NCBI GenBank assembly: GCA_035539175.1
Contig: DATLIY010000003.1
Coordinates: 124,001 to 188,000 of the forward strand
Origin: Acidisarcina sp.
GTDB lineage: Bacteria > Acidobacteriota > Terriglobia > Terriglobales > Acidobacteriaceae
Direction of reading: 5' to 3'
Length of the DNA: 64,000 bases
A program made the position numbers and the translations under genes. Below, piece after piece: positions 4,176 to 29,536 of the stretch. The notes under the pieces are model-generated. The model was not told the DNA's origin. It worked only from the letters and a program-made list of their open reading frames with translations, and did not search any database. Numbering within the stretch: the first letter of the stretch is position 1; the number at the start of each line of letters is the position of its first letter.

Positions 4176-5735
4176 ATGCTTTTTAAGTCACTCAGTGCTG
4201 CTGTTTATGGCATCGACGCGAGCATCATCGATGTCGAGGTAGATTTTTCAGGTATCAAAACAACCGAAGATCGCTTTCACACGGTTGGCCTTCCGGACGC
4301 CGCTGTGCGCGAGAGCCGGGATCGCGTGCGTGCCGCAATCAAGAACTCCGGCTTCGACATTCCACCGACGCACATCACGATCAATCTGGCCCCGGCGGAT
4401 CTCAAGAAAGAGGGAGCAGGCTTCGATCTGCCAATGGCTATTGGCATCCTCGGGGCCTATGGCGGCTTGCAACTGCGGGATACGAGCCAGTTCCTGCTGG
4501 TAGGAGAGCTTGGTCTGGATGGCGGCGTGCGTTCGGTTCCGGGGATGCTTCCGGTTGCCATCGCAGCGCGGGAGCGCGGAATCAAGAACCTGATTCTGCC
4601 CGCTGCCAACGCTGCCGAAGCAGCGGTGGTCGAAGGTGTGGATGTCTATCCTGTCACCTCTCTGCTGCAGGCGCGGGAACTGCTGAATGCGGCTGCCAAC
4701 GGCGGTATCACCACTCCTCCCTTTCGCATTGCCACGGAAAACCTGCTGGGCGAGCTGCAGCATTTTTCTCTCGACTTCAAGGATGTGCGCGGACAGCAGA
4801 CCGCCAAGCGTGCGCTGGAGATTGCGGCTGCGGGCAGCCACAACATCCTGATGATTGGCCCTCCGGGATCGGGCAAGACGATGCTGGCTAAACGGCTGCC
4901 ATCGATCCTCGCTGCTCTGAGTTTTGAGGAGGCGCTGGAGACGACGAAGATTCACTCGGTCGCGGGCGTGCTGGATCCGGAAGCCGGTCTGGTCACGCAG
5001 CGTCCGTTTCGCTCTCCTCACCATACGATTTCGGATGCGGGACTGATTGGCGGAGGCGCTATCCCCCGGCCCGGCGAGGTTTCGCTGTCCCACAATGGAG
5101 TGTTGTTTCTCGACGAACTCCCGGAGTTTCCGCGCAATGTGCTCGAGGTAATGCGCCAGCCCCTCGAAGACGGCACCGTCACCATAGCGCGTGCTTCCAT
5201 GTCGCTGAGCTTCCCGGCGCGCTTCATGCTTGCGGCGGCAATGAATCCCTGCCCTTGCGGATACTTCAACGACAAGTCCCGCGAATGTCGCTGTACGCCG
5301 CCGATGATCCAGCGCTACATCTCCAAGGTTTCCGGCCCATTATTGGACCGCATCGATATCCACATCGAGGTTCCGGCGGTGCAATACAAAGAGTTGCGAT
5401 CCGGAGCTGCGGCAGAAGGTTCGAAAGAGATTCGCGATCGCGTGCTTGCGGCGCGGGAGCGGCAGAAGCAGCGCTTCAAGAGTGCGGGGGAGAAGATCTA
5501 CTCCAATGCGCAGATGGGAACCCGTCAGATTCGCACCTTCTGCGAACTCGCGCCAGACGCCGAACGGCTGCTGGAACGCGCCATGCAGCAGCAGGGGCTG
5601 AGCGCGCGAGCCCATGATCGCATCCTGAAAGTGGCACGGACGATTGCCGATCTGCAGGGGGAGCCTGCCCTGAATGTAGGGCACATTGCCGAGGCGATCC
5701 AATACCGCACGCTCGACCGTAGCTATTGGAGCTAA
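4176..5735 (+). CDS. comM: YifB/ComM-family Mg-chelatase-like AAA+ ATPase
   Basis: A 519-residue member of the YifB/ComM family. ComM acts as a helicase that extends heteroduplexes during natural transformation in proteobacteria. The N-terminal ChlI-type fold begins [14 protein letters not shown] as in the family. The ATPase core has Walker A GPPGSGKT and Walker [11 protein letters not shown], then MNPCPCGY and a C-terminal Mg-chelatase helical domain. A longer reading from 4098 is rejected because its extra residues are unrelated. Together with the ComF-like gene at 18.8 kb it hints at natural competence, but both families are common in non-competent bacteria. Confidence 0.93.
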
Positions 5736-6874: not shown

Positions 6875-6950
6875 TGGAGCCGACGAGCGGACTTGAACCG
6901 CTGACCTGCCGATTACGAATCGGCTGCTCTACCAACTGAGCTACGTCGGC
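6875..6950 (-). tRNA. tRNA-Thr (anticodon CGT)
   Basis: Read on the minus strand it folds as a full cloverleaf: acceptor GCCGACG/CGTCGGC, D-arm GCTC...GAGC, anticodon stem GCCGA/TCGGC with loop TTCGTAA, and T-arm AGCGG-TTCAAGT-CCGCT. The discriminator is T and the 3' CCA is encoded. The anticodon CGT reads ACG threonine codons. No other tRNA was found in the window. Confidence 0.97.
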
Positions 6951-24496: not shown

Positions 24497-24698
24497 AGTT
24501 TCCCATCAAGAGTAGCATTTTCGAGCACGGAGACGGATGGCGGATCCTGGCCGCTTCTGTCCGGCTTCCCCATCTGCCGCGGGCAGGATGTCTAACTCGG
24601 CATGTAGGGCACGCATCCTCTCCTTTGGGCTATTTCCGTTACAGCGGGGTGAGTTTTGCGCTTTAATGGGAAGTTCCTTGAGAGGTGAAAGCGTCCCC

Positions 24699-26933
24699 AT
24701 GTCCCTGAAGAGCTATTGCCGTGCCATCCGGATCGTCCTCGTTCTCTTCTTCAGCCTGCCTGTGTTGCCGTTGCCGTCTATGGCGCAGGGCGGCGACTCG
24801 GTCCAATACAACAGCCAGAGCAGGATCTTCCGGCTCGATGCGGCGGGCGTTACCTACGCTCTCGGCGTCAACGAGAGAGGCGAATTGCAGCCCGTCTACT
24901 GGGGACAAAGGCTGGGGGAGAAAGACGCCCTTGCGCCAGCCCATTCGATGAGGGAGGCCGCATCGTTTGATCTCGCTACCACTACCACGCCGCAGGAGTT
25001 CCCGGGATGGGGAGCGGGGCTATATACCGAGCCTTCGCTCAAAGTCACCTTCCCCGATGGGAACCGCGACCTGGTACTGCATTATGTGAGCCACGCGATT
25101 CACGGCAATGCGCTGGAGATTGTGTTGAAGGACATTTCGCGCGAAGTCTATGTGAACCTGCGCTACCAGATCGATCCCGCGACGGGGGTGCTGGGCCGCT
25201 CGGCAACGATTGAGAATCGGACAAAGGATCCGCTGACGGTGCAGCAGGCAGCATCGGCGGCGTGGACCTTGCCGCGCGCTCCGGAGTACACCCTGAACTA
25301 CTTAACGGGACGGTGGGGCGCGGAGTTTTCACTGCAGCGGGAGAAGATCCGTCCCGGCCAGCGCGTGCTGGAGAGCCGTCGCGGTTCTACCGGCCACCAG
25401 AACAATCCATGGTTTGCGGTCAGCCGGGGAGAGACGCAGGAGGAGTCAGGTGACGTCTGGTTTGGCGCTTTGGCCTGGAGCGGCTCGTGGCGCATTACGG
25501 TGGAGCAGACCCAGCTTGAGGAAGTTCGTATCACCGGCGGTTACAATCCCTTCGATTTCGGATATCGCCTGGCTCCCGCGGAGAAGCTCGCCACGCCGGT
25601 CTTCTATGCGGGATACACGCACTCCGGCATGGGAGAAGCTTCGCGCCTGATGCACCGCTTTGAACTGGCGCAGATTGCTCCGCAACGCCCGCATCCCAAG
25701 GTTCGGCCTATCATCTACAACTCCTGGGAAGCGACGGAGATGAATGTGGATGAACCGGGGCAAGTTGCCCTGGCAGAGAAGGCGGCAGCTCTCGGGGTCG
25801 AACGTTTTGTGATGGACGACGGCTGGTTTGGCCAGCGCAAGGACGACCACGCCGGGCTGGGTGACTGGTACGTGAACCCGCAGAAGTTTCCCCATGGACT
25901 CGGGCCGCTGATCGACCGCGTGCACGCGCTTGGCATGGACTTTGGGCTATGGGTGGAGCCGGAGATGGTGAATCCGGACAGCGACCTCTATCGCAAACAT
26001 CCTGATTGGGTGATCGGTTTTAACGGGCGCCCGCGCACCGAGGGGCGAAACCAGCTCGTGCTGAATCTGGCCCGTCCAGATGTGCGGGAATACGTCTACA
26101 ACTTCCTCGACAAGATCCTTACGGACAACCAGATCGCCTTCCTCAAGTGGGACTACAACCGCAACTGGTCCGAGCCGGGATGGCCCGCGGTCGCGCCGGA
26201 AGAGCAGCAGCAGATCTATGTGAAATACGTGCAGAACCTGTATTCCATTCTGGACGAACTGCGGGCAAAGCATCCCGGCGTCGAGATCGAATCCTGCTCT
26301 GGCGGCGGCGGCCGCGTGGATCTCGGCATCCTCGCGCGCACCGATGAGGTGTGGACGTCGGATAACACGGACCCGTTCGACCGCCTCTCGATTCAGCATG
26401 GATTTACACAGGCCTATGCGCCGGAATTCATGATGGCCTGGGTGACCGATTCGCCGCACTGGCTGAACCGGCGGACGACTTCGATCGAGTATCGCTTTCT
26501 GTCGTCCATGCAGGGATCGCTTGGCATTGGCGCAAATCTCAATCGCTGGCAGCCGGCGGATTTTGCGGCGGCCAAGTCGATGATCGCAGCGTACAAGGAT
26601 GTGCGCGAGACGGTGCAGCATGGCTCGCTCTATCGCCTGATCTCGCCGCTGAATAGCAGCGAGGCATCTGCGACCGAGTCCGTTGCTCAGGATGGAAACC
26701 AGGCGGTCGTCTTCGCGCTGCTCCACTCAAGCCAGTTCGGCAACACCTTTCCGACGCTGTATCTGCGGGGGCTCGATTCGCAGGCAAATTATCGGATCGA
26801 TCTGCTGTACGGGAAGCTCCTAGGTCCCGGCCCGGTTACAGCGACCGGGGCCTACTGGATGTCGCACGGCGCTGACCTGGATCTTCGTGGAGACTACCAG
26901 GCAGCGGCGTTCAAACTCACGCGCCTGCAGTAA
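24699..26933 (+). CDS. GH36 alpha-galactosidase, exported
   Basis: Releases alpha-linked galactose from oligosaccharides such as raffinose or galactomannan fragments. 744 residues: signal (VLVLFFSLPVLPLPSMAQ), beta-sandwich domain, then a TIM barrel with nucleophile D in FLKWDYNRNW (about 485) and acid/base D in WTSDNTDPFD (about 555), plus ESCSGGGGRVDLG. A C-terminal beta domain ends it. The 24699 start gives a clean signal peptide, although AGAGG is 14 bases away; an ATG at 24666 is the alternative. It ends at a terminator shared with the ROK gene region. Confidence 0.93.
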   Translation: MSLKSYCRAIRIVLVLFFSLPVLPLPSMAQGGDSVQYNSQSRIFRLDAAGVTYALGVNERGELQPVYWGQRLGEKDALAPAHSMREAASFDLATTTTPQEFPGWGAGLYTEPSLKVTFPDGNRDLVLHYVSHAIHGNALEIVLKDISREVYVNLRYQIDPATGVLGRSATIENRTKDPLTVQQAASAAWTLPRAPEYTLNYLTGRWGAEFSLQREKIRPGQRVLESRRGSTGHQNNPWFAVSRGETQEESGDVWFGALAWSGSWRITVEQTQLEEVRITGGYNPFDFGYRLAPAEKLATPVFYAGYTHSGMGEASRLMHRFELAQIAPQRPHPKVRPIIYNSWEATEMNVDEPGQVALAEKAAALGVERFVMDDGWFGQRKDDHAGLGDWYVNPQKFPHGLGPLIDRVHALGMDFGLWVEPEMVNPDSDLYRKHPDWVIGFNGRPRTEGRNQLVLNLARPDVREYVYNFLDKILTDNQIAFLKWDYNRNWSEPGWPAVAPEEQQQIYVKYVQNLYSILDELRAKHPGVEIESCSGGGGRVDLGILARTDEVWTSDNTDPFDRLSIQHGFTQAYAPEFMMAWVTDSPHWLNRRTTSIEYRFLSSMQGSLGIGANLNRWQPADFAAAKSMIAAYKDVRETVQHGSLYRLISPLNSSEASATESVAQDGNQAVVFALLHSSQFGNTFPTLYLRGLDSQANYRIDLLYGKLLGPGPVTATGAYWMSHGADLDLRGDYQAAAFKLTRLQ

Positions 26934-26942
26934 GGAAAGAAG

Positions 26943-26977
26943 AGAGCCCTGCACGGCGATCCGTCCTGCAGGGCTCT
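26943..26977. terminator. Terminator hairpin (left copy)
   Basis: AGAGCCCTGCA pairs with TGCAGGGCTCT around a 13-base loop, 10 bases after the GH36 stop. It lacks a long T-tract. Its duplicate at 27892-27926 has one weakened pair. Confidence 0.65.
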
Positions 26978-26995
26978 CGTGCTTTCAGATGAATG

Positions 26996-27101
26996 CTAGG
27001 AGGACACCGCGACGGCCATCTCCATCTCCGCATAGGGAAGCATCGCGGCGCCCAGCAATCCCGACTCCGGGCCGAGCAGAGCGGGAACGATCTGGGTGCG
27101 T
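26996..27101 (-). pseudogene. 3'-terminal fragment of the ROK kinase gene
   Basis: Encodes the last 33 residues of the ROK kinase (TQIVPALLGPESG to the stop TAG) in frame and without amino-acid change, but nothing upstream of it. It is a duplication remnant created with the flanking repeat, not a functional gene. Confidence 0.88.
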
Positions 27102-27159
27102 GAATGTGCAACTTTGGGCTATCAGATTTCTCTTCATTCACCAACAAGGAGAAAGACCG

Positions 27160-27813
27160 ATGAAAACGCTTGCTCTTATAGTGGCTCTCTTCGCCGCTGT
27201 CTCTGGCTGGGCACAAAATGGGAGTCCAGATGGAGCACGGCCCGGAGGTGCCCAACCGCCGACCGAGGCTCTCAATGGGAAACACAGGAATAGTTCCGGA
27301 CCTCTTGCTTGGGTAAGCTCCGACATCAACCCTAAGACCCTCTTCTGGATTCAGGGAAGGTTCGTGCCCGCTGCTGATTCCAACTATCAGGGCCATGCAG
27401 AGGTTGTAACTATCCTGTGTTCGATTCGCGAATACGAATGCCTCGAAATTGAGAGCACTAGCCCGCTCGTCCGCGGTGAACAGGTCTGGATTGCAGATTT
27501 CAAGCCCGCCAGCTGGGACAATACAGGGATTCTGGCAACCACCCGCTCGCTCGACGGCTGCACGGACGAAACGCTGAAAATCCATTTCTCTCCACCGTCC
27601 GTGGTCTTAATCAACTCGCCCGTGCTACCGACGTCCGAGAATTGCAAAAAAGTCAACAACTCGTGGGATACACTTCTGCGCAAAAGCGGCAGCGGGATAG
27701 CGGCACAGATGGAGGAGGATATGCTTGTCCCTACGCGGGGGCCGTTTCCATTTCAGGATATCGATTCTGAAGTCGAGAGAGTTCCTACATCTGCTCTGCA
27801 GAAGAAGCCTTGA
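27160..27813 (+). CDS. Small exported protein of unknown function
   Basis: 217 residues with a clear signal peptide (MKTLALIVALFAAVSGWAQ) and a well-placed AAGGAG before the ATG. The mature protein begins with a low-complexity Gly/Pro/Asn stretch. Four later cysteines (LCSIREYEC, DGC, SENC) could make two disulfides. I do not recognise the family. Its base composition looks less GC-rich than its neighbours. It is the only gene in a segment bounded by the 167-bp direct repeats, so it may have been acquired together with them. Confidence 0.7.
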   Translation: MKTLALIVALFAAVSGWAQNGSPDGARPGGAQPPTEALNGKHRNSSGPLAWVSSDINPKTLFWIQGRFVPAADSNYQGHAEVVTILCSIREYECLEIESTSPLVRGEQVWIADFKPASWDNTGILATTRSLDGCTDETLKIHFSPPSVVLINSPVLPTSENCKKVNNSWDTLLRKSGSGIAAQMEEDMLVPTRGPFPFQDIDSEVERVPTSALQKKP

Positions 27814-27883
27814 TCGTCCTTCGTGCGGCCGGACAGCAAGACAGTGCTTGATGGTCTGCTCTATCAACGGGAGGCATAAGGCC

Positions 27884-28050
27884 GAAAGAAGAGAGCCCTG
27901 CGCGGCGATCCGTCCTGCAGGGCTTTCGTGTTCTCAGGTGAATGCTAGGAGGACACCGCGACGGCCATCTCCATCTCCGCATAGGGAAGCATCGCGGCGC
28001 CCAGCAATCCCGACTCTGGGCCGAGCAGAGCGGGAACGATCTGGGTACGT
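27884..28050. repeat. 167-bp direct repeat, right copy
   Basis: Second copy of the repeat at 26935-27101. It is the native 3' end of the ROK gene plus its terminator. Confidence 0.92.
27892..27926. terminator. Terminator hairpin (right copy)
   Basis: AGAGCCCTGC pairs with GCAGGGCTTT with one G-T pair, 19 bases beyond the ROK stop codon. It is the natural terminator of the ROK gene. Confidence 0.65.
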
Positions 28051-28964
28051 TGTGGATCGACGTCCTCTTCGTTGCGGGGGGCTGTGAGCCGGTAGATATA
28101 GCTATCGCGCAGAAGGACGGAAAACATGGTTGGCGCAAACAGATGCCAGGAGCTTGCCAGCCCACCACCGATGACATACAGGGGAAGATTCAATGTATTC
28201 ACCAGATGGGAGAGGCTGATACCGAGGAATTTGCCCACCTTGACGTATACCTGACGAGCACCCTCATCTCCAGCGTCTGCCAGTTGCGCGACGTTGTGTG
28301 CCGAGATAGATCCAGTAGTAGCAAGGATGCGGGCAATTTCTTCCGACTGTCCGGCTTCGGCTGCTTCCTTTGCCATTCGGGAGACGGCGGTAGCGGAGGC
28401 ATACTGCTCCAGGCACCCTCGTCCACCGCAGCCGCATAAAGGGCCGTCATACTCCAGCGGGCCATGGCCTGCTTCTCCGGCCATCCCGGCCATTCCATGC
28501 CACACTCGCCGATTGAGGATGATTCCGTTGCCGACGCCGGTTCCCAGGGTTAGCATGCAGAGGGAGTTGACTCCGCGCTGCTTGCCGGAGCCGTGAAAAA
28601 GCTCGGCCAGGGCCGCGGCATTGGCGTCATTCTCAATGATGACAGGCATGCCCAGCACCTTTTCAATCTCGATCTTGAGTTCAAAACCGTCCCATCCAGG
28701 AAAATTCGGCAGGTGGTAGAGTTTGCCGGAGGGTAGCTGCAGCGGACCGGGGCTGCCTACGCCGACGCCCACCAGTTCCAATCTGCCCCGCAGCTTGCGT
28801 GCGATTTCGTGGATTGCGTTGCACATGTCCTGTACAACGGCATACTTTCCCGCCTCAAGCCGGGTCGGGATCGCGACGCTTTCGAGCCTCTCCTGAGCCC
28901 TTGTATACGCTGCGATCCGCAGGTTTGTGCCACCAAGATCTACCCCAATTGAAAAGCTATTCAT
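27945..28964 (-). CDS. ROK-family sugar kinase (glucokinase-like)
   Basis: Phosphorylates glucose or a related hexose with ATP. 339 residues with the phosphate loop VDLGGTNLRIA, catalytic ENDANAAALAE and the zinc/ROK motif CGCGGRGCLEQYAS. There is no N-terminal DNA-binding domain, so it is a kinase rather than a ROK repressor. It would serve sugars released by the hydrolases in this window. Its 3' end has been copied to 26996-27101. Confidence 0.92.
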   Translation of the reverse strand: MNSFSIGVDLGGTNLRIAAYTRAQERLESVAIPTRLEAGKYAVVQDMCNAIHEIARKLRGRLELVGVGVGSPGPLQLPSGKLYHLPNFPGWDGFELKIEIEKVLGMPVIIENDANAAALAELFHGSGKQRGVNSLCMLTLGTGVGNGIILNRRVWHGMAGMAGEAGHGPLEYDGPLCGCGGRGCLEQYASATAVSRMAKEAAEAGQSEEIARILATTGSISAHNVAQLADAGDEGARQVYVKVGKFLGISLSHLVNTLNLPLYVIGGGLASSWHLFAPTMFSVLLRDSYIYRLTAPRNEEDVDPQRTQIVPALLGPESGLLGAAMLPYAEMEMAVAVSS

Positions 28965-29536
28965 AGAAAGCCTTTTGCTTCTGCCAGACTATTAGTTTTT
29001 TAACTGCCCATTAGACAGCATATTCCTCATATATGACTTTTTAATGAGAAGGCGCGGGGCCTTTTCATCGTCTTCTGACCCGCAAGCTAAGCCAAAAGCA
29101 CTTTCTATTCATCGGCGTGACTGGCAAGGACGATGACGCCGTCACGAGGCGGTAGAGAGATGCTTTCGCTAGTTGCGCAGCTATTGAGGAGTTGTTCCGT
29201 TAATTGTAAGTCCTGCGCCGGAAGCGAATGGAAGACAGGTGGAAACCGGGGGAGAAACTGGGGTTCGCTGCGGGAAGGGTGATAAAGCAGGTCCTTCGCT
29301 TCGCTCAGGATGACAACCTGGCGGGCGGAAACCGGAAGAGAACGCTTCGCTCAGGATGACAAACAAGGGGGCAGTGAGTTTCCGCGGCGGTGGGAAGCAG
29401 GTCCTTCGCTTCGCTCAGGATGACAAACAAGGCGGGAGGAAACTGGAAGAGAAAACCAGGGGAGAAATCTGGGGGAGAAAACTGGGAGGTCTAGAATGGT
29501 TCCGATTTTGGTTTATCCAGCAAGTGGAGGCTGTAA
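28965..29536. other. 572-bp intergenic region rich in short repeats
   Basis: No gene supported. The left 70 bases are AT-rich and likely hold the ROK promoter. The right part has three copies of CTTCGCTCAGGATGACAA and runs of GAAACYGG-like sequence. A frame at 29181-29366 translates through the repeat as CHPERSEGP, a well-known false gene pattern. Confidence 0.6.
29287..29428. repeat. Three copies of a dispersed intergenic repeat
   Basis: CAGGTCCTTCGCTTCGCTCA plus GGATGACAA occurs at 29288-29316 and 29398-29426, with a shortened copy at 29344-29362. The core is shared with the degenerate repeats at 1477-1570. Confidence 0.75.

Follow-up and report, generated by a model that had tools for sequence, protein, structure and literature searches.

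The locus described here raises the question of why the 3′ end of a sugar kinase gene occurs twice in direct orientation with one small gene between the copies. Within the 64,000-nt stretch of DNA that we analyzed from Acidisarcina sp., a soil acidobacterium (hereafter the window), realignment reproduced exactly the repeat reported in a preliminary description: 26935-27101 (R-left) and 27884-28050 (R-right) align over 167 bp without gaps and are 96% alike, and 7/7 differences are transitions. Each copy carries the tail of a ROK-family gene, as had been stated, although this tail runs to 34 sense codons and a stop (106 nt in all) rather than 33 codons; the remaining 61 nt are non-coding. In R-right the 34 codons, next to a hairpin, are the end of an intact ROK gene, while in R-left they form, by translation, an orphan tail on the minus strand (26996-27101) that is severed from its gene. 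We consider it about an even chance (probability near 0.5) that this arrangement is an integrase-less, CIME-like remnant of a lost element whose attachment site was the ROK 3′ end.

We first asked how well delimited the repeat is. The left contexts of both copies contain TAAGG. A repeat extending beyond the 167-bp edges was nevertheless rejected, as similarity there was not above chance: 3547 of 20,000 random 20-mers scored equally well on the left and 3178 of 5,000 on the right. No further direct repeats of at least 45 bp were found in the window using 14-base seeds. A search of the 3.9-Mb genome reported a single place for the whole R-cargo-R unit and a single place for the cargo, in an output that did not contain the cross-match of the two R copies and that may merge overlapping matches. 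Since the window lies in a contig of 254,878 bp within a 13-contig assembly, an assembly artefact is unlikely to be the source of the repeat. Clustered short repeats of the CTTCGCTCAGGATGACAA and GGAGGAAACTGGAAGAGAAA types are present at 29238-29480, beyond the ROK start.

The preliminary description placed a terminator in each copy. A strong hairpin is indeed present in both, formed by inverted repeats at 26942-26978 in R-left and 27891-27927 in R-right, but neither was flagged by a terminator scan, and their role as terminators is conjectural. The 62-nt stretches containing them were predicted to fold with -35.0 (plus strand) and -31.4 (minus strand) kcal/mol in R-left, and with -30.5 and -22.0 kcal/mol, respectively, in R-right. 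Two of the differences between 27884-27945 and 26935-26996 fall in the hairpin, where they give G-U pairs on the plus strand and mismatches on the ROK strand of R-right; the hairpin adjoining the intact ROK gene is therefore weaker in the ROK direction (-22.0 vs -31.4 kcal/mol).

The 782-bp insert between the copies (27102-27883) proved to be as originally described, with a single secreted-looking gene and no transposase. The only plausible gene is a 217-aa reading frame at 27160-27813 on the plus strand, preceded by a ribosome-binding site recognized by eye (AAGGAG, 27146-27151, plus strand); the remaining ORFs are short or overlap it, and the Pfam scan covered the cargo ORF. No integrase or other mobility gene was recognized in the 782 bp. 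The composition of the insert is mildly unusual, with a GC content of 54.1% (8th percentile of the 782-bp stretches of the window) and a tetranucleotide distance at the 83rd percentile. By eye the N-terminus of the cargo protein looks like a signal peptide, so that the protein is probably secreted, and four cysteines are conserved among the aligned relatives. A simple count, made at high synonymous divergence, gave dN/dS values of 0.16-0.26 against three relatives, which argues that the cargo is a selected gene; it would act as an accessory passenger. The protein had no match in Pfam, NCBIfam, PHROGs or PADLOC, and Rfam yielded nothing for the locus. A profile built with three relatives retrieved no solved structure at E ≤ 1, and an AlphaFold model (mean pLDDT 36) was too poor to use. 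A plasmid collection contained no match, and viral contigs gave none to the cargo, R or integrase. Two familiar classes of mobile DNA were considered and rejected. For a transposon or IS insertion, no transposase was recognized, there are no inverted termini at the ends of the insert, and the repeated 167 bp belong to a host gene; for an integron gene cassette, the repeat consists of ROK coding sequence plus hairpin and has its two copies here only. The genome contains 10 Phage_integrase matches in 3.9 Mb, and the nearest of them is ~95 kb from the locus.

We next examined the neighboring genes. On the left, R-left adjoins a GH36 alpha-galactosidase (Melibiase) ORF at 24537-26933 on the plus strand (Pfam PF02065, PF16875, and PF16874), and on the right lies the intact ROK-family sugar kinase gene, which encodes 339 aa at 27945-28964 on the minus strand (PF00480). 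The same two genes adjoin one another in G001, the sole other genome of the genus that was compared, with DNA identity of ~81% and a ROK orthologue that is also 339 aa long (identical at 301 of 340 translated positions, counting the stop). After GH36, G001 has a single hairpin, a single ROK tail, and no cargo. The preliminary description had suggested looking in relatives for an empty site with a single repeat copy, and such a site was thus present in the one of one other genomes of the genus. It follows that the extra piece in the window consists of one R copy plus 782 bp, which, judging from this one relative, was probably gained in the window lineage with ROK kept intact; loss in G001 would require removal of the insert together with one R copy. 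When the GH36-cargo-ROK DNA was compared with 300 genomes of the family, matches were obtained in 181. Among the matches listed, GH36 adjoins ROK only in the genome of the window itself (G000) and in G001, which left no other site to be classed as empty or filled; in G035 the pair is ~15 kb apart.

The differences between the two R copies are unevenly placed: two are in the 106-nt coding part, both of them third-position and synonymous, and five are in the 61-nt non-coding part. None falls at the 70 sites of codon positions 1 and 2 in the ROK tail. If the seven changes were scattered uniformly over the 167 sites, the probability of sparing all of these positions would be 0.020 and that of finding two or fewer of the seven in the coding part would be 0.062, both tests being post hoc and based on few sites. 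The absence of changes at positions 1 and 2 favors divergence of the tails while both were part of working ROK genes, that is, before arrival and in a donor that was a close relative, in line with the related-strain donor originally proposed. The ROK tail of G001 is only ~75% identical to either R copy, which points to a donor far closer to the window strain than G001. Using G001 to polarize the changes, one of the two coding sites was informative and favored R-left as the ancestral copy, while the non-coding sites aligned too poorly.

The distribution of the cargo family provides a different kind of evidence. Relatives of the cargo are patchy, being found in 6/300 genomes of the family and 9/399 of the class (the genome of the window and weak matches are counted in both), with a further one, L023, in a genome collection. 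Of seven close relatives outside the window, five (L018, L019, L020, L023, and L046) are on stretches that carry tyrosine-integrase genes. In L018, L019, and L023 the cargo homologue is directly beside, and convergent with, the same tyrosine integrase (intA); these three represent one integrase lineage and are not independent cases. In L018 and L019 it is the first gene inside an element bounded by exact 45-bp repeats of the tRNA-Glu 3′ end, 6,862 and 6,643 bp apart, respectively, and in L023 the element is open, with the same tRNA-Glu 3′ fragment upstream. The search for cargo homologues in similar repeat-flanked contexts, suggested at the outset, was therefore successful in part: L018 and L019 lie between tRNA-Glu repeats together with an integrase, but none was found at ROK. 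The cargo copies borne by these elements look broken: L018 shows an apparent frameshift (two frames) and L019 an in-frame TAG, which could be sequence errors in draft genomes. L020 has a C-terminal cargo fragment beside an intA remnant and tRNA-Glu, and L046 has two integrase-like genes ~4 and 5.5 kb from the cargo homologue, one of them Pfam-checked, along with a tRNA-Ser and a DUF3631 gene. The 18-19 kb around L016 and L017 yielded no match to intA or to the L020 integrase, in a search with these two integrase queries rather than a Pfam scan. For comparison, judging from the Phage_integrase matches in the genome of the window, chance would place one within 5 kb of a few per cent of randomly chosen genes; the window cargo itself has no such match within 5 kb.

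Some of these stretches had features of their own. L016 was considered as a second repeat-flanked case and rejected: the intergenic repeat at L016:6470-6588 that flanks the cargo homologue and its neighbor is dispersed, with 49 matches in that genome (G021). At L020:4170-5479, a tRNA-Glu(ctc), the intA remnant, and the cargo fragment are clustered, giving the appearance of layered, decayed insertions. A small, secreted-looking protein encoded there at 4651-5130 resembled a distant cargo relative by eye; it had no match at E ≤ 1e-3 and was not counted. Distant homologues of the cargo (E 1e-3 to 1e-11) also occur in more genomes of the class (L021 and L047-L051), on stretches with no intA-type match, and possibly belong to a broader undescribed family.

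The integrase that accompanies the cargo homologues has a consistent target. Relatives of intA at E ≤ 1e-60 were found in 19/300 genomes of the family; a tRNA was present at 13 of the 19 loci, in every case tRNA-Glu, and the other six had no tRNA on the stretch examined. An extra ORF lies between the tRNA and the integrase at four loci (L081, L082, L083, and L090), two of which (L082 and L083) correspond to cargo loci L018 and L019; this optional position is thus occupied by a cargo homologue or by another gene. The elements themselves are small integrative elements at tRNA-Glu with a tyrosine integrase (L018:1778-8714, L019:2842-9559, and L023:6255-11816). L018 also carries a DUF3631 gene and L023 a Prim-Pol primase, and there is a short gene whose L023 copy matches PHROG 15261. 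Given that every intA locus with a tRNA had tRNA-Glu, we rejected the window repeat as an intA site: the only tRNA in the window is a tRNA-Thr (6875-6950), and G000 has no intA relative at E ≤ 1e-60.

How, then, might the arrangement have arisen? The preliminary description proposed either a single crossover by a molecule carrying R plus the cargo or an unequal exchange. The former is supported by the geometry, with ROK intact, and by the empty site in G001; the latter found no support, as the genome search reported no second cargo match and G001 has a single tail. A horizontally acquired piece would have entered by one reciprocal crossover within the ROK 3′ end. As it would have brought a ROK tail with it, ROK would stay whole, and R-left would be the displaced native tail, now adjoining GH36. 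This piece would most probably have been an integrative element with an integrase targeting the ROK 3′ end, and later loss of the integrase and other genes would have left a single passenger gene between attL and attR. What we observe are two repeats, an intact ROK gene, a congener with the empty site, the patchy cargo family, and the cargo homologues in integrase elements elsewhere; from them we infer R as an attachment site, a former integrase, and a later deletion.

The agent of the crossover could be a site-specific integrase or RecA. We prefer an integrase, at roughly even odds, because the cargo family occurs at the attachment sites of integrase elements and because e14 of E. coli, the most familiar element of this kind, leaves the same scar. 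The main weakness of the attachment-site reading is that no integrase for the ROK tail is known: no element at ROK was seen in any genome examined, and the integrase of the relatives uses tRNA-Glu. A RecA-type homologous single crossover (Campbell insertion) without a site-specific recombinase, in which a non-replicating circle or transforming DNA contributed the ROK tail of a related strain plus the cargo, is therefore a strong rival, although in our view the less probable of the two. Shared R alone would give identical geometry, no integrase was recognized, and a near relative would suffice as donor, considering that the R copies are 96% alike compared with ~75% for the congener tail. However, 167 bp with seven mismatches is a short and imperfect substrate for RecA, the molecule would have to join the cargo to both ends of R, and the position of the cargo family at the attachment sites of integrase elements would be left unexplained. 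In pneumococcus, transformation has been documented to produce partial duplications (PMC3784515).

Other explanations account for less of the evidence. The same R-cargo-R order could be obtained without a circle if a linear donor (cargo, hairpin, ROK) paired via ROK and underwent illegitimate joining at its opposite end within the ROK tail of the recipient, at 27101/27102, a mechanism that has been named in the literature. We regard such a one-sided insertion as unlikely, as no donor locus with the cargo directly downstream of ROK was found and similarity past the repeat edges is at chance on both sides (3547/20000 and 3178/5000, as above). Still more doubtful is an old in-place duplication of the ROK tail that caught the cargo between the copies and then drifted. 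R-left is outside any gene and would be free to drift, and the copies differ by 4%; against this stand the lack of differences at the 70 sites of codon positions 1 and 2 and the scarcity of coding changes (the post hoc P values of 0.020 and 0.062), the single tail in G001, and the patchy cargo, for which such a duplication does not account. It seems similarly improbable that the cargo family moves as minimal attL-gene-attR cassettes that have gene tails as attachment sites and are mobilized in trans by integrases of other elements, the tail of each cassette determining whether it targets tRNA-Glu or ROK.

The preferred reading, an element remnant at an attachment site in ROK, has a close parallel in e14 of Escherichia coli K-12, which is described as supplying the 3′ end of icd (PMC6379469). 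There, as here, the element provides the replacement 3′ end of the target gene and the displaced tail (icdC) stays at the far side, in the place where R-left would be the leftover native tail adjoining GH36. The icd tail and icdC differ at 12/165 bp, with 11 of the differences in third position, 10 synonymous, and nine transitions, compared with 7/167 in the window, where 2/2 coding differences are synonymous. Blocks of att identity are reported to reach ~250 bp when the site is well inside the target gene, with the replacement tail on attP (PMC10111431). On the other hand, e14 is ~15 kb long and has intE/xisE, whereas the window insert is 782 bp with one gene and no recombinase.

It is the absence of an integrase that makes the locus CIME-like, a CIME being described as an element without its integration and transfer genes that keeps attL and attR (PMC5704250). 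The locus has direct repeats at both ends, at a gene 3′ end, one of which completes the intact target gene, and integration and transfer genes are absent from the 782 bp between them, with one plausible gene that has no Pfam match and no integrase or transfer gene recognized. It differs in that the repeats are putative att sites, the parent element and its recombinase were not found, and a single gene is left. Among the matches listed in our literature searches on Acidobacteria tRNA-Glu islands and on ROK as an attachment site, no title described such a case. Our results suggest that in Acidobacteria a gene-tail duplication like that of e14 and icd can be maintained around a lone passenger of 782 bp. 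They also link a secreted-looking family, for which the libraries searched gave no match, to integrase elements that occupy tRNA-Glu sites. Tail-gene-tail scars are easily searched and may mark decayed islands that are missed by integrase-based tools. Compared with the tRNA-Glu elements (L018, L019, and one end in L023), the locus shares the cargo family, and its gene likewise lies just inside a repeat, here a putative attachment site. Those elements, however, have tRNA-Glu as their target, exact repeats of 45 bp, and 6.6-6.9 kb containing the integrase and other genes, and their cargo is oriented the opposite way relative to the target gene: its start faces the intact target gene in L018 and L019, while its end faces intact ROK in the window. 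Set beside these systems, the window locus represents a common kind of insertion, here at a very small size.
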